64,000 nucleotides of DNA from Zobellia uliginosa (GTDB taxonomy: Bacteria; Bacteroidota; Bacteroidia; Flavobacteriales; Flavobacteriaceae): positions 862,275 through 926,274 of the forward strand of contig NZ_FTOB01000002.1 of the NCBI RefSeq assembly GCF_900156625.1, read 5' to 3'. Position numbers and translations under genes: made by a program. This document shows positions 3,277 to 31,662 of this stretch, piece after piece; position 1 is the first letter of the stretch, and every line of letters starts with the position of its first letter. Below the pieces are notes generated by a model. That model was not told where the DNA came from and made no database searches. It saw nothing but the letters and a program-made list of their open reading frames with translations.

Positions 3277-5802
3277 TTAATTCAATTTGGTAGGTTGTAC
3301 GTTCTTTTCCAAAGAAAGCATATTGGCGAACAGCTTATAGGCCCCTGGTACACCGGCGGGCAATTCCCTAAAGAAACTCAATCCGGTATAGATGTAGTTC
3401 CCTTTTCCGTAAGGAGTCACCAAAAGGCTTCCCTTTTTGGGAGACTCCCCCTTGTCGTGCATAGAGAGAACGGGAGTAAACTCCTTGGACCATTCATTCG
3501 GAAAATAAAGTCCGCGTTCTTGAACCCATCCCTCAAAATCACTTTGGCCGATTGTATTCGGGTAATTCATAAGTGCGTGTTTTTTGGCCAATATCTTTAC
3601 TTCTGAATTTTCATCCGTTACCCTATCGCGGGATAAGGTAATGGGGTAGGGTGCCAGATTTTCAAGCTGCTTGCCCCGTCTGCTGGCGGTATTGTACTGA
3701 ACGATCAGATTGCCCCCGTTTTCAACATAGTCAAAAAGGTAACGCTGTTTAAATTTCAGTTCCTCTACCACGTTATAGGCCCGAATGCCCACAACGATAG
3801 CATCGTATTTGTCTAAGGAGCCCTTGGCTATCGTATTGGGCTCAATAATGTGTACAATGTAACCAATTTGTTTCAAACTTTCGGGAACTTCATCGCCAGC
3901 CCCTACAATATAACCGATGTGTTGCCCCGATTTTTTAATGTTCAAACGTACGACCTTGGCTTCTGAAGGCAGTAATACCGACTGGGTAGGGACATGGTCG
4001 TAGGCTATGGTTACCAATTCTTTGGAGATTTGCTTTCCGTTTAATTTTATGATCGGTGAGATATAGCTTTCATCTTCGTTTTCTGGTGGGGTCAAGGTAA
4101 AAACAAGGGTTTGCTCGTCGCCTTTTTTAGCTATTTCGAAGGCTTGCGATGCTACATCGACCTTCCATCCCTTCGAATGCTGTAGTTCTAGCTCGCCTTT
4201 GATATTATCGGCATGGGCCCTGATGGTCACCGGTATTTTTTTAGACTTGCCATCCGCAAAAATCAAGACTTTGTCGTTGAATCGGGCGGTGGCTTCGGGC
4301 AGTACTTCAAAGGGCTGGAATAGCTCTCCTTTGTCAGGTCTTGCATAATGGTGTATAACGGGTCTTTCAAATACTATGGTGCGGCCGCTTAGTTCAATTT
4401 CGAACTTGGCCACAAAGGCGCGTGGGGTTTCGGGCTTGCCGATAAGTTTTTGGTCGGCTACCTTATACATGCCCAAACTCCCTTTTTCCTTTAACCAATA
4501 CGGACTGGTGAAGTCTGTGTCCTCTGGAATCTGCAATTCAATTTCAAAAGTTTCCTTTTTATTGTTCGCTAAGGGAATGGAAGGGGCGATACGCGCATCT
4601 GAAGAGGAAATCGATATGATTTTTAACCTCATTTGCACCGAACTACGATTGACTGCTTCAATGTTTACTTTAACCTTTCCTCCCGGATTGGCCAAAGCCG
4701 TTTCCGCCGAAGCTTCGAGGTATAGGCCGCTTATATCGGCAATGATGTCTTTCAATTCCTCTGTCTTAAGCTTCCTCCAATAAGGGTCACCTACTTTTTG
4801 AAGCAAGTCGTATGCAGCCGCCAATTGGGGCAAATGTTTTGATGGTTTGGTGAAGTCGAAGTTCCTTTGCACTTCGTACAAAATATCCCCAACCGCTTTA
4901 CCGCCGGATACGCGAGACCAAGAGGTGTCGATACCTTCGAAGATATCGCCCGAATTTTTCGGCATCGTTCCTTTCAACAATTCTATATATTCGTTTTCGG
5001 AGCCTCTTTGTGACAATCGGCCAAAGCCTTGGCACAAGTGTTGGCTGCTCGCCAAAGCGGCGATTTCGTTATTCGATTTTCCTAAAATAGGGTAGTAGGT
5101 GCCAATGTCTAAATGGGTCATTTTAGACTTGTCAGCTTTTTCGAATTTTTCTTCACTGCCATAAAACCACCATGAGGTGTTGAAAAATAGCCTTTTGGGT
5201 TGCCAAGTTTCGGTGAGTTCTAATTGATCGCTATAGGCGTTCTTGTCATTGGCGAGGTCAAAGGCCTCAAAACTCAACATGGCGGAAGAGGTATGGTGCC
5301 CGTGAGTGGTACCGGGACTCCTATGGTCGAAACGGTTAATGATCACATCGGGTTTGAAGTTTCTTATAGCCCAGACAACATCGCCCAATACGGCTTCCTT
5401 ATTCCATATTTTTAAGGTTTCATCAGGATGTTTGGAGTAGCCGAAATCGTTGGCCCTCGAAAAAAACTGTTCCCCTCCGTCAATGCGTCTCGCGGCCAAA
5501 AGTTCTTGTGTACGCAAGACCCCTAACAGCTCGCGAAGCTCTGAACCGATCAAATTCTGGCCTCCGTCACCCCTTGTCAATGAAAGATAGCCCGTACGTG
5601 CCTTAACCTTGTTCGAGAGATAGGAGATCAAACGGGTATTCTCATCATCGGGGTGGGCGGCTATATAAAGTGCGGTACCCAAAAAGTTTAATTTTTCCAG
5701 AGAATGGTAAATTTCGGAAGAGGACCGTTGCTCGGGTTTTTGTGCAACGACCAGGGACGATGATAAAAGTATTCCTGTAAAGAATACTAGAAAATAGCGC
5801 AT
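3277..5802 (-). CDS. Exported PIG-L family deacetylase with C-terminal ThuA/GATase-like domain
   Basis: 841 residues from the ATG at 5802, chosen because it starts a clear signal peptide (MRYFLVFFTGILLSSSLVVAQ). An earlier in-frame ATG at 5853 falls at or upstream of the likely transcription start. Residues ~45-230 are a PIG-L zinc deacetylase: AAHPDDEN (about 48-55) and a distal Arg/His-rich motif with THGHH near 145-150. The middle part is made of beta-sandwich segments. Residues ~640-830 resemble a class I glutamine-amidotransferase/ThuA fold (YDAIVVGIRAYN, NGGNLIVQYNT). Likely a periplasmic N-deacetylase acting on an amino sugar or glycoconjugate. Substrate unknown. It heads an operon with the microprotein and symporter. 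Confidence 0.82.
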   Translation of the reverse strand: MRYFLVFFTGILLSSSLVVAQKPEQRSSSEIYHSLEKLNFLGTALYIAAHPDDENTRLISYLSNKVKARTGYLSLTRGDGGQNLIGSELRELLGVLRTQELLAARRIDGGEQFFSRANDFGYSKHPDETLKIWNKEAVLGDVVWAIRNFKPDVIINRFDHRSPGTTHGHHTSSAMLSFEAFDLANDKNAYSDQLELTETWQPKRLFFNTSWWFYGSEEKFEKADKSKMTHLDIGTYYPILGKSNNEIAALASSQHLCQGFGRLSQRGSENEYIELLKGTMPKNSGDIFEGIDTSWSRVSGGKAVGDILYEVQRNFDFTKPSKHLPQLAAAYDLLQKVGDPYWRKLKTEELKDIIADISGLYLEASAETALANPGGKVKVNIEAVNRSSVQMRLKIISISSSDARIAPSIPLANNKKETFEIELQIPEDTDFTSPYWLKEKGSLGMYKVADQKLIGKPETPRAFVAKFEIELSGRTIVFERPVIHHYARPDKGELFQPFEVLPEATARFNDKVLIFADGKSKKIPVTIRAHADNIKGELELQHSKGWKVDVASQAFEIAKKGDEQTLVFTLTPPENEDESYISPIIKLNGKQISKELVTIAYDHVPTQSVLLPSEAKVVRLNIKKSGQHIGYIVGAGDEVPESLKQIGYIVHIIEPNTIAKGSLDKYDAIVVGIRAYNVVEELKFKQRYLFDYVENGGNLIVQYNTASRRGKQLENLAPYPITLSRDRVTDENSEVKILAKKHALMNYPNTIGQSDFEGWVQERGLYFPNEWSKEFTPVLSMHDKGESPKKGSLLVTPYGKGNYIYTGLSFFRELPAGVPGAYKLFANMLSLEKNVQPTKLN

Positions 5803-23786: not shown

Positions 23787-25349
23787 ATGACAAGTTTAAG
23801 GAATTATTTTTTGAATGGCGCCATCCTGTTACTGGTGTTGTCGGGCTGTAAGTCCAAAGAAGAAAAAACGGTCGTAAAGGACGATAGTCCCAAACAACCC
23901 AATATTGTCTTCATTTATATGGATGATTTGGGATATGGCGACCTAAGTGCATATGGTGCCACTGAATTGAGTACGCCCAATATCGATGCCTTGGCAGAGG
24001 GCGGCGTGCAGTTCACCAATGGTTATGCCACTTCGGCCACCTGTACGCCGAGTCGCTATGCCATACTTACCGGACGCTATCCTTGGAGGAACAAAGATGC
24101 CAAAATACTTCCGGGTACGGCTCCTTTGATTATCAGTACCGATCAACTGACCGTTCCAAAAATGTTAAAGAAAAAAGGCTATACTACGGGTATCGTAGGT
24201 AAGTGGCATTTAGGTCTGGGAAGCGGAAACGTAAACTGGAACGAAAGGGTTACCCCTGGTCCAAATGAGGTTGGTTTCGATTATTCCTATATATTGGCGG
24301 CCACTCAAGATAGGGTGCCTACCGTTTATATTAAAGACGGACATGTTGACGGTTTAGACCCCAACGACCCTATAGAAGTGAGCTACAAGGAAAATTTTGA
24401 GGGAGAGCCTACTGGATTGGACAACCCGGAATTGACCACAATGAAATGGCATCACGGTCATAACAACAGTATTGTGAACGGTATTCCACGTATCGGTTAC
24501 ATGAAAGGTGGAGAAGCGGCAAAATGGAGCGATGTAGATATGGCCGACCACTTTTTGGCCAAGGCCCAGGCCTATGTGAAAGACCATAAAGACAAGCCCT
24601 TTTTTCTATACTACGCTTTGCAGCAACCTCACGTACCGCGTACGCCACATCCAAGATTTGCCGGAAAGTCGGGAATGGGACCACGAGGCGATGTTATTCT
24701 TGAAGCGGATTGGGTTGTTGGTGAATTTATGAAGACATTAGAGGAACAGGGGCTTTTAGAGAACACCTTGATCGTATTTTCCAGTGATAACGGTCCTGTC
24801 GTAAATGATGGCTACTATGATGATGCCGAAGAGAAACTAGGAAATCATACTCCATCAGGTCCTTTACGTGGTGGAAAGTATAGCTTGTACGATGCCGGTA
24901 CACGAGTGCCTTTTATTACGTATTGGAAAGGTAAGATCGCTCCTGCTAAATCGGATGCCCTGGTATGCCAAGTAGATTTACTTACCTCAATGGCCGCTTT
25001 GGTAGGTAGTGATAAAAAAGGTGAGGATAGCGAAAACTTTTTGGACGCCCTAATGGGAAAAAGCGACCAAGGTAGAACAGAATTGGTTTTAGAGGCGGGT
25101 TCAAGAACAGCTTTTAGAAAAGGGGACTGGGTCATGATTCCTCCTTATAAAGGTGCTGCCATAAACAAGCAGGTGAATATAGAATTGGGTAATGATAGTG
25201 AATATCAACTGTACAACCTTAAGGAAGATATTGGGCAGACCAAGAACTTGGCCAAGGAAAACCCTGAAAAACTTCAGGAAATGATTCAAGGTTTTGAAGC
25301 CATAAGGGGAAAGAATGACGTTGAGATCAAAGAACTGGAGTTGAAATAA
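23787..25349 (+). CDS. Formylglycine-dependent sulfatase, lipoprotein
   Basis: 520 residues. Lipobox LSGC (Cys21). The alkaline phosphatase-fold sulfatase signature CTPSR begins at Cys86, which would be converted to formylglycine, followed by YAILTGRYPW. Metal ligands are seen in FIYMDDLGYGD and in the distal SSDNGP motif; GKWHLG and HVPRTPH are also typical. It removes sulfate esters, probably from an algal or other sulfated polysaccharide, in the periplasm or at the surface. It is the last gene of the Sus locus. A TAAATTTG at 23746-23753 may give it an extra promoter. Confidence 0.92.
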   Translation: MTSLRNYFLNGAILLLVLSGCKSKEEKTVVKDDSPKQPNIVFIYMDDLGYGDLSAYGATELSTPNIDALAEGGVQFTNGYATSATCTPSRYAILTGRYPWRNKDAKILPGTAPLIISTDQLTVPKMLKKKGYTTGIVGKWHLGLGSGNVNWNERVTPGPNEVGFDYSYILAATQDRVPTVYIKDGHVDGLDPNDPIEVSYKENFEGEPTGLDNPELTTMKWHHGHNNSIVNGIPRIGYMKGGEAAKWSDVDMADHFLAKAQAYVKDHKDKPFFLYYALQQPHVPRTPHPRFAGKSGMGPRGDVILEADWVVGEFMKTLEEQGLLENTLIVFSSDNGPVVNDGYYDDAEEKLGNHTPSGPLRGGKYSLYDAGTRVPFITYWKGKIAPAKSDALVCQVDLLTSMAALVGSDKKGEDSENFLDALMGKSDQGRTELVLEAGSRTAFRKGDWVMIPPYKGAAINKQVNIELGNDSEYQLYNLKEDIGQTKNLAKENPEKLQEMIQGFEAIRGKNDVEIKELELK

Positions 25350-25408
25350 TCGACTCTTAATCGGTATTGTCTTTCGTGATTTTTATCGAAGGATACCTCA
25401 CAGTTCAC

Positions 25409-25413
25409 CCATA
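25409..25413. repeat. Candidate 5-bp target duplication (CCATA), left copy
   Basis: CCATA directly precedes the outer end of the left IS copy and is repeated at 30035-30039 directly after the outer end of the right copy. Neither IS copy has matching flanks by itself, which fits insertion of the whole unit as one composite transposon. Five matching bases can arise by chance, so this is suggestive only. Confidence 0.45.
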
Positions 25414-25893
25414 ACCTGAGTTCGATTAATAATATTTGATTATTAGACAGCAAAAAAGATAGATTTTTAGTAAGTTAAAGTGTTGAAATTTAATTTTTTA
25501 ATCTAAAAATCTATCTTTTATAACTTACTCTAAAGTCACAGGAATTTTCTGTTTAGTCGATGAATTTTGTAAGGAATATGCTGAAGTAGTGGATAAAGCC
25601 CTTATTGGGAATAAAGCAAAGCGTCCTTCGATAATGTCTCAAAGTGAAATAATCACACTAGCAATTATTTTCCAATTAAGTGGGTTTAGAACCTTTAAAC
25701 ACTTCTATGTTTTCTATGTAAAGACTCATATGAATAATAATTTTTCCTGCCACAGTTTCCTATAATAGATTTACAGAACTAATGCAAGAGAACTTAATGG
25801 CTATTTGCACATAGCTTCCTGCCAAAAAAACTAAGTATCAAATTTCAAACCATAAAAACTAATCAAACAACTTTGTTTTAATCGAACTCAGGT
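25414..25893 (+). mobile_element. Defective IS982-family copy (internal deletion)
   Basis: 480 bp against 1000 bp for the intact copy, with both 16-bp terminal repeats retained. The transposase start ATG is changed (TTTTATAA where the intact copy has TATGATAA). A 9-bp insertion (TTTTCTATG) follows CACTTCTATG near 25710, a stop appears in CCTATAATAG, and about 535 bp of the centre, including the catalytic core, are missing with the junction near 25805. It could still be moved in trans by the intact transposase. Confidence 0.9.
25458..25515. repeat. 13-bp inverted repeats enclosing a 32-bp segment (orientation A)
   Basis: GATAGATTTTTAG (25458-25470) and CTAAAAATCTATC (25503-25515) are perfect inverted repeats. 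The 32 bp between them (25471-25502) match the reverse complement of the corresponding segment in the intact IS (29092-29123) at 28 of 32 positions by hand alignment, but do not align well directly. The segment therefore lies inverted relative to the other copy. Confidence 0.8.
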
Positions 25894-25985
25894 TTATAGT
25901 AATTTGGTTTTACGACAAACTTCACTACTGCGGTTTGACCAAATCCAATATCAATATGAGAAATTAATATCAACGCATAACTAAA

Positions 25986-27467
25986 CTAGAGCAAGTTAAT
26001 TAATTTATGACTTGAGATTTTGTTTGTTGATAGACTGTATTTTGCTTTGATTTTTTCCAACTTCTCACAATAACCTTGCTCAGCAAGCCAAATATCACCT
26101 CTATAAATCCGATTAGGACCTGAGTCTCTATATTTTTGAATGATGATATTTATATCCTCAGTAAACTCTTTGGCATAATATTCATCTTCTCCATTTGGTT
26201 CGTCCCAGTGTAGTTCAAACCTTGTAAGCACTTCTCCTAACTCCATAGAGCACGTTTTTTCTTTTATTTTTGCTCCTCCGCTTGCTGTAAGAATGTACAT
26301 TCGCCATTTTAATGGATGATCTTTTATTTTTTCGCAAGCATTTATTAAATCTAAAAACATTTGATCACAATCAGGTATACTCCAACTTGATAAGGTAGTA
26401 AAATATGAATCTACCATTTCTCTTTTCCAAGACGTTTCTTCCCAGTATGTTAGAGGTGAACGTCTTAATTTTTCGCTTGTTACTTCTGATATAGCTTCGG
26501 GAGTTTCAGTAAGATAATCTGATGCGGTGATCATCCTAACATCCAATATAGAACCTGTCTTCCAATCATCAGGGTTTTCAATTATCTTGACAACTGTTTC
26601 GCCAAGTTCTTGTCTCAAAATTTTTAATGTTTCTGAAATAGAGAATAAACTAAAAACATTGAACGAACACATAGGTTCTGAATAACCTGGTTCAAAATGG
26701 ATTCTAAATGAAACGGAAATCTCTCTAGGTAAATGATGGGCTTTCAAAAATGTTTTATTTGCTACACAAACTTCCAATTGGTTTTTTGACATTAATTTCA
26801 GACACCAACTTGCCGTAGATGGGGCTTCTATGACTTTCAAATTTAATTCTGTCACTACACCTATTTCGGCTGCAGCACCGCCTTTTAAAGACCAAAGGAT
26901 ATCAGGATGGGAATGTTCATTTACGACTAATGTCTCTCCGCTCCAAAGAACTATTTTAGCACTTTCTACATGTTGACACCCAAGACCATACTTTCTACTA
27001 AGTATAAAGTCCCAACCTGCTGTAGTAAAATGCCCCCCAGCATGTACATCAAAACAATCACCATGAGGAAGAGCTTTATTGTTTTGATGAAGTAGGTATA
27101 TTATTTTCCCTAAAATACATCCTGGCTGAAGAGAGATGATGTTTTCATTTAAATGACAGTTATCCATCATAGATAAATTTATCATTATACCGTCACAAGA
27201 AGCGCCATTAAAATATCCATGTCCGCCAGATCTAACAGAAACCGAAGTATTCTCATAAATTTCTAATGATGTTAATAAAGACAATACTCTGGCTACTCCC
27301 CAATCGCTACAAGGTGATACTACAATTTGAGGAATTATTGCTTCGCGATTATGCATTTGAGAATACGTGGGGAAGTATTCTCCATTAGTTTCTTCATATT
27401 TGATTCCTACTTTGTCAAGCTCCTTTTTTAGGAGTATTATCTTTTTATTATTTGAGGTGTTTTTCAT
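25986..27467 (-). CDS. FAD-linked oxidase of the berberine bridge enzyme (BBE)-like family
   Basis: 493 residues. FAD-binding PCMH fold in the first ~220 residues: SVRSGGHGYFNG contains the His used for 8-alpha-histidyl FAD, and HGDCFDVHAGGHF contains a Cys at the place of the 6-S-cysteinyl link, so bicovalent FAD is plausible. The C-terminus (IYRGDIWLAEQGYCEKLEKIKAKYS) resembles the BBE domain. Such enzymes oxidise sugars, alcohols or amines with O2. No signal peptide was found, so it is probably cytosolic. It is cargo of the composite transposon, AT-rich compared with the chromosome. Substrate unknown. Confidence 0.82.
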   Translation of the reverse strand: MKNTSNNKKIILLKKELDKVGIKYEETNGEYFPTYSQMHNREAIIPQIVVSPCSDWGVARVLSLLTSLEIYENTSVSVRSGGHGYFNGASCDGIMINLSMMDNCHLNENIISLQPGCILGKIIYLLHQNNKALPHGDCFDVHAGGHFTTAGWDFILSRKYGLGCQHVESAKIVLWSGETLVVNEHSHPDILWSLKGGAAAEIGVVTELNLKVIEAPSTASWCLKLMSKNQLEVCVANKTFLKAHHLPREISVSFRIHFEPGYSEPMCSFNVFSLFSISETLKILRQELGETVVKIIENPDDWKTGSILDVRMITASDYLTETPEAISEVTSEKLRRSPLTYWEETSWKREMVDSYFTTLSSWSIPDCDQMFLDLINACEKIKDHPLKWRMYILTASGGAKIKEKTCSMELGEVLTRFELHWDEPNGEDEYYAKEFTEDINIIIQKYRDSGPNRIYRGDIWLAEQGYCEKLEKIKAKYSLSTNKISSHKLINLL

Positions 27468-28041
27468 TTGGATGTTTATTGTTAAGTTAAATGTTAAAGC
27501 CCTCTAATTTGGTTGCAGATACTTTAGTTTCTATAAATGTTTTAGTTTTGTTGCATGTCAAACTACCAAAAGAATTCACATTCGATAAGCAAATCTGAGT
27601 TGCCTTTTTGTATGGGCAAGAAAATATAGTTATAATGTTCTTCAAGGTGATATTCAATATCGTTGTGAGATTTGTTGATACAGATATGTAATTTTGAAAA
27701 TGTTGATATTCTAAAGGGAGTTGTAAGAAAGAATTTCATTCTTTTGTTAAAAACTATGGATTTTCAATCCATAGTGATCCATTCTTGTTATAGATTAATC
27801 ATGTCAAGGCAGATCGTCTACTAGGCATGATTCAAATATGGACAAAGTAAATATATTAATTAGACAATACTAGCGTTGAAATGAATCGTGTCTTTTCGCG
27901 CTGATAGCTTTATCTAAGAAGTTGTTCTATACTGATTTCTGGGCTTTCCAATCCTTCATCCATCTTTCTTAGCCTTTATTTTTTACTTCGAATAATATAT
28001 AGAGTGGTATTAATGAAGCGATAAAAATTCCTATGGCAATA
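27468..28041 (-). other. 574-nt AT-rich gap between ridA and the oxidase
   Basis: Contains a minus-strand terminator-like hairpin (27749-27774), a second short dyad (AAAGAAT/ATTCTTT, 27728-27744) and a 31-codon hydrophobic frame without an ATG (27969-28064, minus). No TAnnTTTG was found in front of the oxidase. Nothing else is supported. Confidence 0.5.
27749..27774 (-). terminator. Intrinsic terminator downstream of ridA
   Basis: CTATGGATT/AATCCATAG is a perfect 9-bp stem with a 3-nt loop. On the minus strand it is followed by TTTTT. It lies about 270 nt after the ridA stop and suggests that ridA and the oxidase are not on one simple transcript. Confidence 0.6.
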
Positions 28042-28452
28042 TTATTTATTTGGCTTAAAAGCAATCGCGTCTATCTCAACCTGCATAACGTCTAGTGCTA
28101 ACCTTGGGACGGGGATTAATGTGCTAGCAGGGTAAATTTTATTTGTCCAAAATTCACTCATTTCTTCACTCCAAATTTTTAATTTTTCTTCATTATGATT
28201 AACAATCAGTACGGTAATTTTAACAATGTTTTCAGGTTCTAGGTTATATTCGTCTAGTACAATTTTAATATTTTTTAGAGTAAATTGTAATTGAGTTCTA
28301 AAGTCACTTGAAAGGGTATGATCTAAATCTTGATCACCACCTTGTCCAGAAATGAAAATGTATTCACCATTGGAAGGCGAACGTACAGAATGACAAAAAC
28401 CATAAGGTGTTGGATCAAATAGTTGTTTTGGGTTTGTGTGTGTTTGTTCCAT
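28042..28452 (-). CDS. RidA/YjgF/UK114 family protein (enamine/imine deaminase-like)
   Basis: 136 residues from the ATG at 28452 (MEQTHTNPKQLFDP). The frame stays open to 28554, but that part reads through an IS1595 remnant, so the longer version is rejected. Family features: PYGFCHSVRSPSNGEYIFISGQGG, LKNIKIVLDEYNLEPENIVKITV, and ASTLIPVPRLALDVMQVEIDAIA with the conserved Arg that binds the carboxylate of 2-aminoacrylate-like intermediates. RidA proteins hydrolyse reactive enamines/imines. Pairing with a flavin oxidase suggests that it may handle an imine product, which is inference. Confidence 0.85.
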   Translation of the reverse strand: MEQTHTNPKQLFDPTPYGFCHSVRSPSNGEYIFISGQGGDQDLDHTLSSDFRTQLQFTLKNIKIVLDEYNLEPENIVKITVLIVNHNEEKLKIWSEEMSEFWTNKIYPASTLIPVPRLALDVMQVEIDAIAFKPNK

Positions 28453-28519
28453 AATAATTGTTGATAACATTATTAAATGAATGCTTAAAATTAATGTTTT
28501 ACAAGTGTATATCTGTACC

Positions 28520-28830
28520 CCTATTCCCCAATGGCCACAAGGTTTATGTACCACTACCTATACAGGCTCGTAACTTTTCAACCCTAGCTTTTTCTTTATC
28601 ACCTTGGTAGAAAATCCTTTCTTAGTAACACTCATCAGAAACATAGTCTTATACCATACAAAAATGAAAGATTAGAACTCTACATAATCATACCACTAAG
28701 CAACGAAGTCCGAGAACAACACTTCTTGCACTCATAACTCCAACGGCTCTTTATCCAATAATACTCAGTATGGGAGAACTGATGAGAAGAAACATATACC
28801 TTATCTCCACTCTTGCTTAAAATGATTCCT
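28520..28830 (-). pseudogene. Decayed IS1595-family transposase, N-terminal part
   Basis: On the minus strand pieces of the IS1595/ISXO2 N-terminus can be read in more than one frame: YYWIKSRWSYECKKC (zinc-ribbon half), SRTSLLSGMIM, then an in-frame TAG, SSNLSF, a frameshift, VWYKTMFLMSVTKKGF, STKVIKKKLGLKSYEPV, another stop, and VHKL. The first CPxC of the ribbon is lost and the DDE core is absent. It is a relic inside the composite transposon and shows an earlier wave of insertion. The rest of 28555-29034 is AT-rich without recognisable features. Confidence 0.75.
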
Positions 28831-29078
28831 CGCTATCAAAATGAGCGGTAAAACTAAAGATATTCATTAATTTATTTTTTTATACAATTTAGTATTGTGC
28901 ACTTGTGCACTCGAATTGTTATAAGCAAATTTAAAGAAGCATTAAGAGAAATAATATACCTAAAAATAACGATTTTTGAATAGTGATTTATAAGGGTAAC
29001 ATATTGTGGTTTATCCTTGTTTTTTTACTTCATAACCTGAGTTCGATTAATAATATTTGATTATTAGACAGTAAAGAA

Positions 29079-29136
29079 GATAGATTTTTAGATTAAAAAA
29101 TTGATTTTAAACACTTTAATTTACTAAAAATCTATC
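29079..29136. repeat. 13-bp inverted repeats enclosing a 32-bp segment (orientation B), just before the transposase ATG
   Basis: GATAGATTTTTAG (29079-29091) and CTAAAAATCTATC (29124-29136) flank the segment that is inverted in the left copy. The right arm ends 1 nt before the transposase ATG (29138), so the stem could also hide the ribosome binding region in read-through transcripts. Confidence 0.8.
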
Positions 29137-29137
29137 T

Positions 29138-30022
29138 ATGATAATTTACTCTAAAGTCACAGGAATTTTCTGTTTAGTCGATAAATTTTGTAAGGAATAT
29201 GCTGAAGTAGTGGATAAAGCCCTTATTGGGAATAAAGCAAAGCGTCCTTCGATAATGTCTCAAAGTGAAATAATCACACTAGCAATTATTTTCCAATTAA
29301 GTGGGTTTAGAACCTTTAAACACTTCTATGTAAAGACTCATATGAAAAATGATTTTCCTGCCACAGTTTCCTATAATGGATTTACAGAACTAATGCAAGA
29401 GAACTTAATGGCTATGACTTTGTTTTTAAAAACCTGCTGTTTGGGTGATTGCTCTGGAATATCATTTATTGACTCTACTCCTGTAAGGGTCTGCAAGAAT
29501 AAACGAATACACAATCATAAAGTCTTTAAGGGTATTGCTACTATTGGTAGGTCTATCATGGGTTGGTTTCACGGTTTTAAGTTGCACATTATCATAAATG
29601 ACAAAGGGGGGATTTTAAACTTCACAATTACACAGGCTAACGTAGACGATAGGAAGCCATTAAAGAAAGAGCGGTTTCTAGACAAAATTTACGGGAAGTT
29701 ATTCGCCGACAAAGGCTATATAGGAAAAGATTTAATACAGATGCTCTTTGTTGATGGCGTACACCTAATCACATCGGTTAGAAACAACATGAAGAATTCA
29801 CTAATGACCATGAGTGATAAAATTTTACTTAGAAAACGTTCCGTAATAGAGACCGTCAATGATGAACTCAAAAACATCTGCCAAATAGAACATTCAAGAC
29901 ATAGAAGCTTTGGTAATTTCTTGGTAAATATTATCGCAGGGCTTATTGCATATAGCTTCCTGCCAAAAAAACTATGTATCAAATTTCAAACCATAAAAAC
30001 TAATCAAACAACTTTGTTTTAA
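29138..30022 (+). CDS. IS982 family transposase
   Basis: 294 residues. N-terminal DUF/HTH-like part (about 1-105), then the DDE catalytic core: [26 protein letters not shown] (first Asp), a [16 protein letters not shown] strand pair, [12 protein letters not shown] (second Asp) and [24 protein letters not shown] (Glu). This motif series is diagnostic of IS982. The frame is full length without interruptions, so the enzyme may be active. Its leader holds the hairpin with the inverted segment. Confidence 0.95.
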
Positions 30023-30045
30023 TCGAACTCAGGTCCATAATACAT

Positions 30046-30103
30046 ACCGTTCCTAGTGTAGAAGCTGTTCTTTTTCAGTATTTTGTATTAGGAACGGTTT
30101 TTT
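30046..30103 (+). terminator. Hairpin terminator, possibly belonging originally to the sulfatase operon
   Basis: ACCGTTCCTA (30046-30055) pairs perfectly with TAGGAACGGT (30089-30098) and is followed by TTTTTT. No gene ends close upstream except the transposase. Removing the composite transposon would place it about 70 nt after the sulfatase stop. Confidence 0.6.
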
Positions 30104-30252
30104 GTTATAAAAAAAAAACGATATTTGCCCCGTCATGAAGTTATAGAAATTATGTTCCGTATAGATGTCGTTAGGCCATTGTCCTAAATTAATCGAACCT
30201 TCTTCGTTCGGTTTTGACATGTCTTCCTTTTTTCAACATAATTTCTTTTCAA

Positions 30253-31662
30253 ATGCCACATATAAATAGAATTACCTTAAAAAGACTGTTTCAGCACTTT
30301 ATAGTTGCCGTTACGGGCAAAGAAACAGAATTTACTTCCGGAAGCATCCGTAAGGCCATTTTTATGCTTTCCATCCCCATGATTTTGGAGATGATGATGG
30401 AGTCTATTTTCGCCATTGTAGATATTGCCTATGTTTCACAGGTAAGTGTAAATGCGGTAGCCACCATTGGTCTTACCGAATCGGTAGTGACCTTGGTCTA
30501 TGCCGTGGCCATAGGACTGAGTATGGCAGCAACGGCCATAGTAGCCCGAAGAATAGGGGCGAAGGATGTAAAGGGCGCCCAAGAAGCGGCAGTGCAGGCC
30601 ATAGCCCTAGGTGTCTTGGTTTCGGTTGTAGTCGGAGTATCGGGCTTTTTATATGCGAAGGACATTCTGGCCTTGATGGGGGCGGAACCTGATTTAATTG
30701 CCGAGGGCTATGGGTATACGCAGCTGTTACTGGGAGGTAATATCACAATTTTGCTATTGTTCTTGATCAATGCCATATTCAGGGGGGCTGGTGATGCCTC
30801 CATTGCAATGTGGGCCTTGGTGCTTTCCAACGGACTCAATATTATTTTAGATCCTATATTTATCTTCGGATGGGGACCTATACCGGAGTATGGGGTTATG
30901 GGGGCGGCCATCGCTACGAATATAGGTAGGGGAGCGGCCGTTTTGTTTCAATTGGCGGTCTTGTTCTTTGGTTGGAGCCGTATACAGATCGGGTTTAAGG
31001 ACATGGTCCTTCATTTTGGGGTAATGCTCAACCTTGTAAAGGTATCGATGGGAGGTGTCGCCCAATTTCTTATAGGCACTTCAAGTTGGGTGTTTCTTAT
31101 GCGGATGATGTCGGAGTTCGGTAGCGAGGTCTTGGCAGGTTACACCATTGCCATTAGGGTCATGCTGTTTACTTTGATGCCCTCTTGGGGGATGAGCAAT
31201 GCCGCGGCCACCCTGGTAGGCCAAAACCTTGGGGCAAAAAAGCCCGATCGCGCGGAAACCTCGGTTTGGAAGACGGGAAAATACAATGCCTGGTTTATGG
31301 GTATGGTTTCTTTGGTCTATCTTTTCTTTGCATATGATATCGTAGGTTGGTTCAATACGAATCCTGTAGTGGTCGAAAATGGCGGTCTATGCCTTCAGAT
31401 TATAGCTGTAGGCTATGTATTCTATGCCTATGGCATGGTCGTGACCCAAGCTTTTAACGGAGCGGGGGATACCGGTACACCGACCAAACTGAACCTTATT
31501 GCCTTTTGGTTGTTTCAGTTGCCTTTCGCCTATTTAACGGCCATTGCGTTTCAATGGGGGGCGATGGGCGTATTCGTCGCCATTACTGCCGCAGAGGTAC
31601 TGTTGGCCGTCATCTCTATGGTGTGGTTTAAAAAAGGGAAGTGGAAAAAGGTCAGTGTCTAA
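30253..31662 (+). CDS. MATE family efflux transporter
   Basis: 469 residues from the ATG at 30253 (MPHINRITLKRLF). A TTG at 30214 is a less likely start. Twelve predicted membrane helices in two homologous halves: SIRKAIFMLSIPMILEMMMES opens the first MATE repeat, and GTSSWVFLMRMMSEFGSEVLAGYTIAIR with MPSWGMSNAAATLVGQNLGA opens the second. It exports cationic drugs or metabolites in exchange for Na+ or H+. Substrate unknown. It stands alone upstream of a PLP enzyme (41-nt gap), with which it may be cotranscribed. Confidence 0.93.
   Translation: MPHINRITLKRLFQHFIVAVTGKETEFTSGSIRKAIFMLSIPMILEMMMESIFAIVDIAYVSQVSVNAVATIGLTESVVTLVYAVAIGLSMAATAIVARRIGAKDVKGAQEAAVQAIALGVLVSVVVGVSGFLYAKDILALMGAEPDLIAEGYGYTQLLLGGNITILLLFLINAIFRGAGDASIAMWALVLSNGLNIILDPIFIFGWGPIPEYGVMGAAIATNIGRGAAVLFQLAVLFFGWSRIQIGFKDMVLHFGVMLNLVKVSMGGVAQFLIGTSSWVFLMRMMSEFGSEVLAGYTIAIRVMLFTLMPSWGMSNAAATLVGQNLGAKKPDRAETSVWKTGKYNAWFMGMVSLVYLFFAYDIVGWFNTNPVVVENGGLCLQIIAVGYVFYAYGMVVTQAFNGAGDTGTPTKLNLIAFWLFQLPFAYLTAIAFQWGAMGVFVAITAAEVLLAVISMVWFKKGKWKKVSV

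Follow-up and report, generated by a model that had tools for sequence, protein, structure and literature searches.

In a 64,000-nucleotide (nt) stretch of the Zobellia uliginosa genome (contig NZ_FTOB01000002.1, positions 862,275 to 926,274; here called 'the window'), two copies of an insertion sequence (IS) of the IS982 family lie in direct orientation, and in one of them the 32-bp segment between two inverted repeats just upstream of the transposase gene is reversed. This loop inversion is most likely a single template-switch mutation, not a programmed switch. The hairpin in which it occurred is, judged from its sequence, a control leader conserved among IS982 elements of this kind, and we read that leader as the site of an antisense RNA resembling RNA-OUT of IS10. 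Taken jointly, a template-switch flip in a conserved control leader with an antisense-RNA brake is the account that we consider probable, with ample room left for error.

The assignment to IS982 follows from the right copy, which is 1000 bp long, has terminal inverted repeats starting with AC and encodes a transposase with a DDE_Tnp_1_3 domain (E 3.1e-70); several plasmid relatives carry an IS982 annotation. A BLAST search of the genome found no third copy, and a search with the exact arm pattern found just two sites. Both insertions are present in one of the eight other same-genus genomes searched (G388). The parts of the two copies are as follows.

25414-25893, plus strand: left IS982 copy, a remnant of ~480 bp (internal deletion, start codon lost), with a full-length orthologue in G388
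25414-25429 and 25878-25893: terminal inverted repeats of the left copy
25452-25457, minus strand: A-run outside the left 5' arm, candidate U-tail of an antisense RNA, from the family pattern
25458-25470, plus strand: left 5' arm, 13 bp, with perfect pairing out to 25454
25471-25502, plus strand: left loop, 32 bp, in the common (ancestral) orientation
25471-25478, plus strand: sense -7-like box of the left copy, TAAGTTAA, inside the loop
25503-25515, plus strand: left 3' arm, with perfect pairing out to 25519
25517-25519: start-codon position of the left copy, reading TTT
25531-25538, minus strand: left equivalent of the antisense -7 site, likewise TGACTTTA
29035-30034, plus strand: right IS982 copy, 1000 bp
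29035-29050 and 30019-30034: terminal inverted repeats of the right copy, 16 bp, ACCTGAGTTCGATTAA
29064-29067, plus strand: TTAG, candidate -33 box of the right sense promoter, from the family pattern
29073-29078, minus strand: right equivalent of the A-run, interrupted (AAAGAA)
29079-29091, plus strand: right 5' arm, 13 bp (14 bp with 29078)
29089-29096, plus strand: TAGATTAA, -7-like box of the flipped right copy, lying 3 nt upstream of where the family has it
29092-29123, minus strand: right loop, 32 bp, inverted (derived), matching the G388 orthologue at 31/32 when inverted
29124-29136, plus strand: right 3' arm, ending 1 base short of the ATG at 29138
29138-30022, plus strand: IS982 transposase, open frame, 294 aa
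29152-29159, minus strand: candidate antisense -7 box in codons 5-8, TGACTTTA in the right copy (TAAYTTTA in most relatives)

The original prediction, made from the letters of the window, described perfect 13-bp arms enclosing 32 bp in both copies, with the arm ending 1 nt before the transposase ATG in the intact copy and the left segment matching the reverse complement of the right one at 28 of 32 positions. All of this was reproduced: the 3' arm of the intact copy ends at 29136 and the ATG begins at 29138, and the loops agree at 28/32 positions when inverted and at 12/32 when read directly. Counted out to the last matching pair, the stems measure 17 bp (left copy) and 14 bp (right copy). Among 100,000 letter shuffles of the loops none reached 28 matches (maximum 24). 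Self-palindromy does not explain the inverted match: compared with their own reverse complements, the left loop agrees at only 8/32 positions and the right loop at 16/32. A repeat search returned the same relationship as a 66-nt inverted match of 91% between the two leaders.

Comparison with G388 gives the event a direction. The flanks of its insertions align with the window at 94-95%, so the insertions in the two genomes are orthologous. The left loops match directly (30/32), whereas the right loop of the window matches the right loop of G388 at 31/32 positions when inverted and at 15/32 when read directly. It is thus the intact right copy that is derived, having been flipped after the two lineages split, and the left copy keeps the common, ancestral order. 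As the right loop is nearer to its own orthologue (31) than to the left loop of the window (28), it was turned in place and not copied from its neighbour. Both G388 copies are frameshifted near codon 7, and the frame of the window's right copy is open. The same figures bear on the possibility that no inversion took place, either because independent point changes accumulated in a semi-palindromic loop or because the assembly is wrong: the right loop is indeed partly self-complementary (16/32), but a match of 31/32 inverted against 15/32 direct with an orthologous copy argues strongly the other way, and a 58-bp feature fits within one ordinary read, which would make an assembly error unlikely. 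We regard this explanation as extremely improbable. A weak 60-bp match in a further genome, G781, did not look like an IS982 element on inspection and was set aside.

Copies from relatives were sorted by loop orientation, a check that the original prediction had proposed. A covariance model of the leader had matches at 70 places in 28 of 397 genomes from the family, and in 4 of 395 drawn from the class. Altogether 136 leaders, 106 of them distinct, were read: those of 68 of 80 loci, two from the window, two from G388, 42 model matches and 22 further model places. Twelve of the 80 loci were excluded by eye, their leaders being cut off, displaced or absent (L034, L039, L047, L048, L050, L051, L059, L069, L081, L082, L084 and L085), and L118, L119 and L127 were dropped as duplicates of L009, L043 and L044. 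Orientation was scored by comparing each loop with that of its nearest neighbour. By this measure 134 of the 136 leaders are direct (113/114 and 21/22 in the nearest-neighbour comparisons), one is a tie and one is inverted. The sole inverted leader is the window's right copy, by a margin of 25 points; the tie, L193, has lost its 3' arm and is direct by eye. The narrowest direct margins are those of L075 (+1), xL139 (+3) and xL137 (+5). Genomes with several copies, namely G353 (five), G276 (six) and G212 (seven), hold all of them in the common orientation, as does the displaced loop of the excluded L069.

Several candidates for a second flipped leader were rejected. Scoring distant relatives against the window loops only gave mixed calls, several of them falsely the same as the right copy, and was replaced by nearest-neighbour scoring; xL136 and xL138, flagged by the promoter profile beside the window's right copy, proved to be in the common orientation under that scoring; and partial model matches in G072 and G498, suspected of being flipped, were not flipped by eye. 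As a separate observation, the 3' arm of the G498 leader (L151:268-327) itself ends in ATG (CATAGATTTTTAG...CTAAAAATCTATG), and the start codon may sit inside the stem.

These counts separate the two mechanisms that had been offered, an invertible leader switching transposase expression and a hairpin loop flipped in replication. The first would have a site-specific recombinase flip the 32-bp segment at the 13-bp repeats and so turn the transposase on and off, and it gains some plausibility from the perfect repeats around part of a promoter and from the fact that invertible promoters are known in Bacteroidales. A switch of this kind is doubtful because both states would be expected among so many copies, and none of the 135 other leaders scores as inverted (134 are in the common orientation, and the tie is direct by eye). 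The arm letters, moreover, differ among relatives, unlike a fixed recombinase site, and the flipped form retains a -7-like box, so that there is no clean off state. A phase-variable promoter is, on this record, in which neither reads nor same-species strains were tested, highly unlikely.

A single inversion in 136 leaders therefore favours one template-switch event, and the second of the offered mechanisms is supported as far as sequence goes: the change is bounded by the inverted repeat, is derived, lies at an orthologous site and involves the copy's own loop (31/32 as against 28/32), so that a segment bounded by inverted repeats is reversed with respect to a polarised ancestor. In the lineage of the window, replication of the right copy would have switched template between the two perfect arms, and the 32-bp loop would then have been copied from the other strand, and hence inverted, once. 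Template switching of this kind has been reported from yeast, where it yields spacer inversion and arm homogenisation and only at arms >9 bp (PMC8604942), and loop-only inversions have been reported in ribosomal RNA hairpins, those of bacteria included (PMC8794818). The left copy may hold a second trace, in that the change of its ATG to TTT lengthens the palindrome to 17 bp (14 bp in the right copy), as expected of arm homogenisation; we consider this only suggestive. A polarised inversion of a 32-bp loop at an orthologous site offers a good natural case of template switching at short inverted repeats in bacteria.

The hairpin itself is widespread among the relatives. Dereplication at 80% leaves 21 leaders with a mean longest stem of 9.1 bp, as against 5.2 bp in dinucleotide shuffles (highest of 200 set means, 5.9). 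In 26 aligned leaders 82.3% of cells are paired (70.4% when shuffled and 31-51% with the partner slid), 48 cells have changed on both sides (20.0 +/- 4.1 when shuffled) and the covariation score is 0.351 (0.164 when shuffled). The 3' arm usually ends at -1, and in the Pedobacter and Bacteroides types the stem takes in the ATG. The arm letters vary among the leaders and the pairing stays. Six more distant plasmid copies were chosen by us for inspection; the Persicobacter copy had too little upstream sequence, and the remaining five were inspected without shuffles. The Nostoc, Leptolyngbya, Cardinium and Lactococcus copies have stems of 8-11 bp ending at -6 to -1, and Pseudanabaena has a similar hairpin before an ATG upstream of the annotated start.

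Stem mismatches indicate which strand is likely to fold. Across 61 distinct arm pairs there are 43 A.C mismatches on the sense strand and 3 G.T; column shuffles give 59% A.C, and 0 of 2000 reach the observed 93%. The skew recurs in Flavobacteriia-type (28:1), Pedobacter-type (3:1) and the remaining, mostly Bacteroidales, leaders (12:1). Since an A.C mismatch in the sense strand corresponds to a G.U pair in the antisense strand, the mismatches are of the kind that an antisense RNA tolerates. Predicted stabilities point the same way: with a margin >0.5 kcal/mol, the antisense fold is the stabler in 57 of 92 leaders and the sense fold in 26, and the mean difference between the two folds, in favour of the antisense, is 2.08 (0.80 in shuffles).

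The mismatch test demoted our first reading of the hairpin, in successive tallies of 54 to 6, 37 to 4 and finally 43 to 3. According to that reading the hairpin is a lock on the sense strand: read-through transcripts carrying both arms would fold over the start codon, and the element's own mRNA, which would start in the loop and so lack the 5' arm, would be translated. A stem that usually ends at -1 or takes in the ATG, and a promoter that straddles the 5' arm, would suit such a lock, as would the predicted folding energies for the four window and G388 leaders (-14.9 to -22.1 kcal/mol for the read-through RNA and -0.1 to -1.7 kcal/mol for the element's own); in Flavobacterium, start regions are reported to be kept weakly structured (PMC6847099). 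The A.C mismatches, however, would break a sense RNA, and a lock leaves the constraint on codons 5-8 and the A-run (both described below) unexplained. We consider the lock unlikely, if worth taking seriously; it is compatible with an antisense RNA, and the two may coexist.

The reading that we prefer, an antisense RNA, draws on two further features. Codons 5-8 of the transposase gene follow the pattern nnT AAA RTT A (TAAARTTA). Of 37 dereplicated genes 31 keep it at all three third positions, and agreement over the 111 third positions totals 104, where each gene's own codon use would predict 58.7; for the same residue pattern at other places in these genes the figure is 258, with 270.7 expected. 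Bacteroides genes hold it as well while using AAG and GCG nearby. The opposite strand reads TAAYTTTA, close to the -7 box of the sense promoter, and we take these codons to be held as a candidate antisense -7 box, with a predicted start near nucleotide 10 of the transposase gene. The second feature is a run of at least four A in six positions outside the 5' arm, found in 64 of 71 leaders (those of the 91 distinct leaders that pair at >=7 of 10 positions; overall A fraction, 0.40), which would be the U-tail of the putative RNA. An antisense RNA of ~75 nt would begin near nucleotide 10 of the gene, fold into the hairpin, end in the U-tail and pair with the transposase mRNA over its 5' end and start region, blocking translation as RNA-OUT does in IS10.

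A hairpin followed by a U-rich run could also be an intrinsic terminator and nothing else, ending antisense-strand transcription as it leaves the element, with no regulatory RNA. The A-run in 64 of 71 leaders would serve that purpose equally, and the Nostoc, Leptolyngbya and Cardinium copies likewise show a stem and then a U-rich run on the antisense strand. A terminator gives no account of the antisense -7 box in codons 5-8, and a terminator scan of 28900-30200 returned nothing, but that scan allows no loop longer than 8 and so passes over this hairpin. We consider the terminator-only explanation improbable.

Several observations weigh against an antisense-RNA leader. Of five covariation measures, two, namely pairs changed on both sides (8 as against 7.0, with 157 of 500 shuffles as high) and further pair types (16 as against 15.5, with 250 of 500 as high), do not exceed shuffles, and relatedness among the sequences means that the counts overstate independence. 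In the Bacteroidota-type leaders a start-region hairpin is conserved with signs of selection on the antisense strand; against this, the mismatch skew is only 17 to 12 in one alignment (A2) as placed by MAFFT, where we think that the register is off for several rows, and of the five distant copies three fold better as sense and two as antisense. The sense fold is also the stabler in the right copy of G388 and the left copy of the window. For the antisense promoter no clear -33 box is evident, and it fares poorly in a two-box scan of 38 genes, its position coming first in one of them and among the best three in 11. Synonymous identity is raised across codons 1-15 (1.44, 1.75 and 1.35) and in later blocks as well, reaching 1.40 at codons 26-30; part of the constraint on codons 5-8 may therefore reflect codon bias early in the gene. 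Finally, the brake may have been lost in the window's own copies, both of which carry TGACTTTA.

The flip also touches the sense promoter. TAnnTT occurs within -52 to -38 in 69 of 71 leaders (the window's right copy excluded), and in 18 dereplicated leaders a T-n-G box lies 20 nt upstream of it (T 16/18, G 13/18). The resulting candidate promoter, TTTG/TTAG-N20-TAwATTwA, straddles the 5' arm and fits the -33/-7 pattern of Bacteroidota, of which a -33 element is part. A TAnnTTTG box has been placed at -12 to -5 from the transcription start (PMC9723704), and the element's own mRNA should therefore start inside the loop. The flip exchanges TAAATTAA (10.9 bits, G388 copies) for TAGATTAA (7.2 bits), three bases upstream; the -7-like box of the window's left copy scores 6.7 bits. 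Adding the best TTAG box brings the totals to 14.0 for the G388 copies, 10.4 for the flipped copy and 9.9 for the window's left copy. Since both the stem and a -7-like box survive in the flipped copy, the inversion was probably close to neutral or slightly harmful. The leader of the right copy has changed in several places (the A-run is interrupted, the sense -7 box is displaced and TGACTTTA stands in both window copies), and a near-neutral mutation fits this better than a regulatory switch does.

In plasmids, new incompatibility groups arise through loop changes, and the inversion could by analogy be a change of identity, in which the mRNA of the flipped copy no longer responds to antisense RNA from unflipped copies but still matches that of its own copy. 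If so, and provided that the antisense RNA recognises the mRNA through the loop, the dead copy next to it would no longer inhibit the intact, flipped one. We give this idea very little credence.

Changes near codons 7-9 are common to both copies within one genome and absent from the other (the window as compared with L149), which suggests within-genome homogenisation between the two IS982 copies, in the window's genome and in that of L149. The direct copies enclose, in the manner of a composite unit, a segment (25902-29034) with genes for a FAD-binding oxidoreductase (25986-27467, minus strand) and a RidA/L-PSP protein (28042-28491, minus strand, with a start of our choosing). Window positions 25799-27521 are 98.6% identical to G388, with outer flanks at 94-95%, and ~470 bp between the copies (27522-27991) are unmatched in the compared G388 stretch.

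No Rfam match (E up to 5) occurs in positions 25300-30300 of the window, so the RNA-OUT family model does not recognise this leader, and none of five Rfam matches in seven relatives' loci falls on a leader. Two Rfam Flavo-1 RNAs (75.5 and 67.2 bits; L024:1571-1648 and 4660-4739, minus strand) lie within ~2 kb of an IS982 copy of Flavobacterium gawalongense, with no leader overlap. Searches of the literature for IS982 and antisense RNA, in part-texts and with subscription papers mostly not covered (and hence no proof of novelty), returned no description of this leader; searches for IS982 with invertible segments, and for insertion sequence, transposase and impinging transcription together, returned nothing.

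Among known systems, the IS982 family as reviewed shares with the window element a size of ~1 kb, ends beginning AC and a DDE transposase; the available portions of that review mention no palindrome, antisense, leader or terminator, and a single hairpin in connection with frameshifting (PMC7335449). In Pyrococcus furiosus, antisense starts in IS elements mostly overlap the start of the transposase frame, a result for all IS elements, five of them IS982 (PMC6640164, in part). Published template-switch cases resemble the present one in that a segment between inverted repeats is reversed with the arms unchanged, and in arm homogenisation; they differ in that the site here is the leader of a mobile element and, to the detriment of our interpretation, in that their spacers carry 2-5 substitutions and their loops measure 4 to 8 nt, as against 32 bp (PMC8604942 and PMC8794818, as excerpted). 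As a type of mutation the flip is known; its length is unusual. Bacteroidota invertible promoters likewise have inverted repeats around part of a promoter; here, by contrast, 136 leaders hold no second flipped case and the arm letters vary.

The closest parallel to the leader is RNA-OUT, a 69-nt RNA from the strand opposite the transposase of IS10/Tn10, whose first 35 nt are complementary to the translation initiation region of the transposase mRNA and block ribosome binding, and which acts in trans, more strongly at high copy number (PMC5006887, in the portion available). The IS982 hairpin, candidate antisense -7 box and U-tail lie in matching places. The IS982 case, known from sequence alone, differs in its transposase family, mostly in host phylum and in having the sense -7 box inside the loop region of the hairpin. 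If our reading is right, IS982 elements of Bacteroidota carry a compact antisense-RNA brake in which two promoters and a hairpin interlock within ~110 bp, with similar start-codon hairpins in the cyanobacterial and lactococcal copies looked at, and this would be a second control system like that of IS10, in phyla with few such RNAs known.

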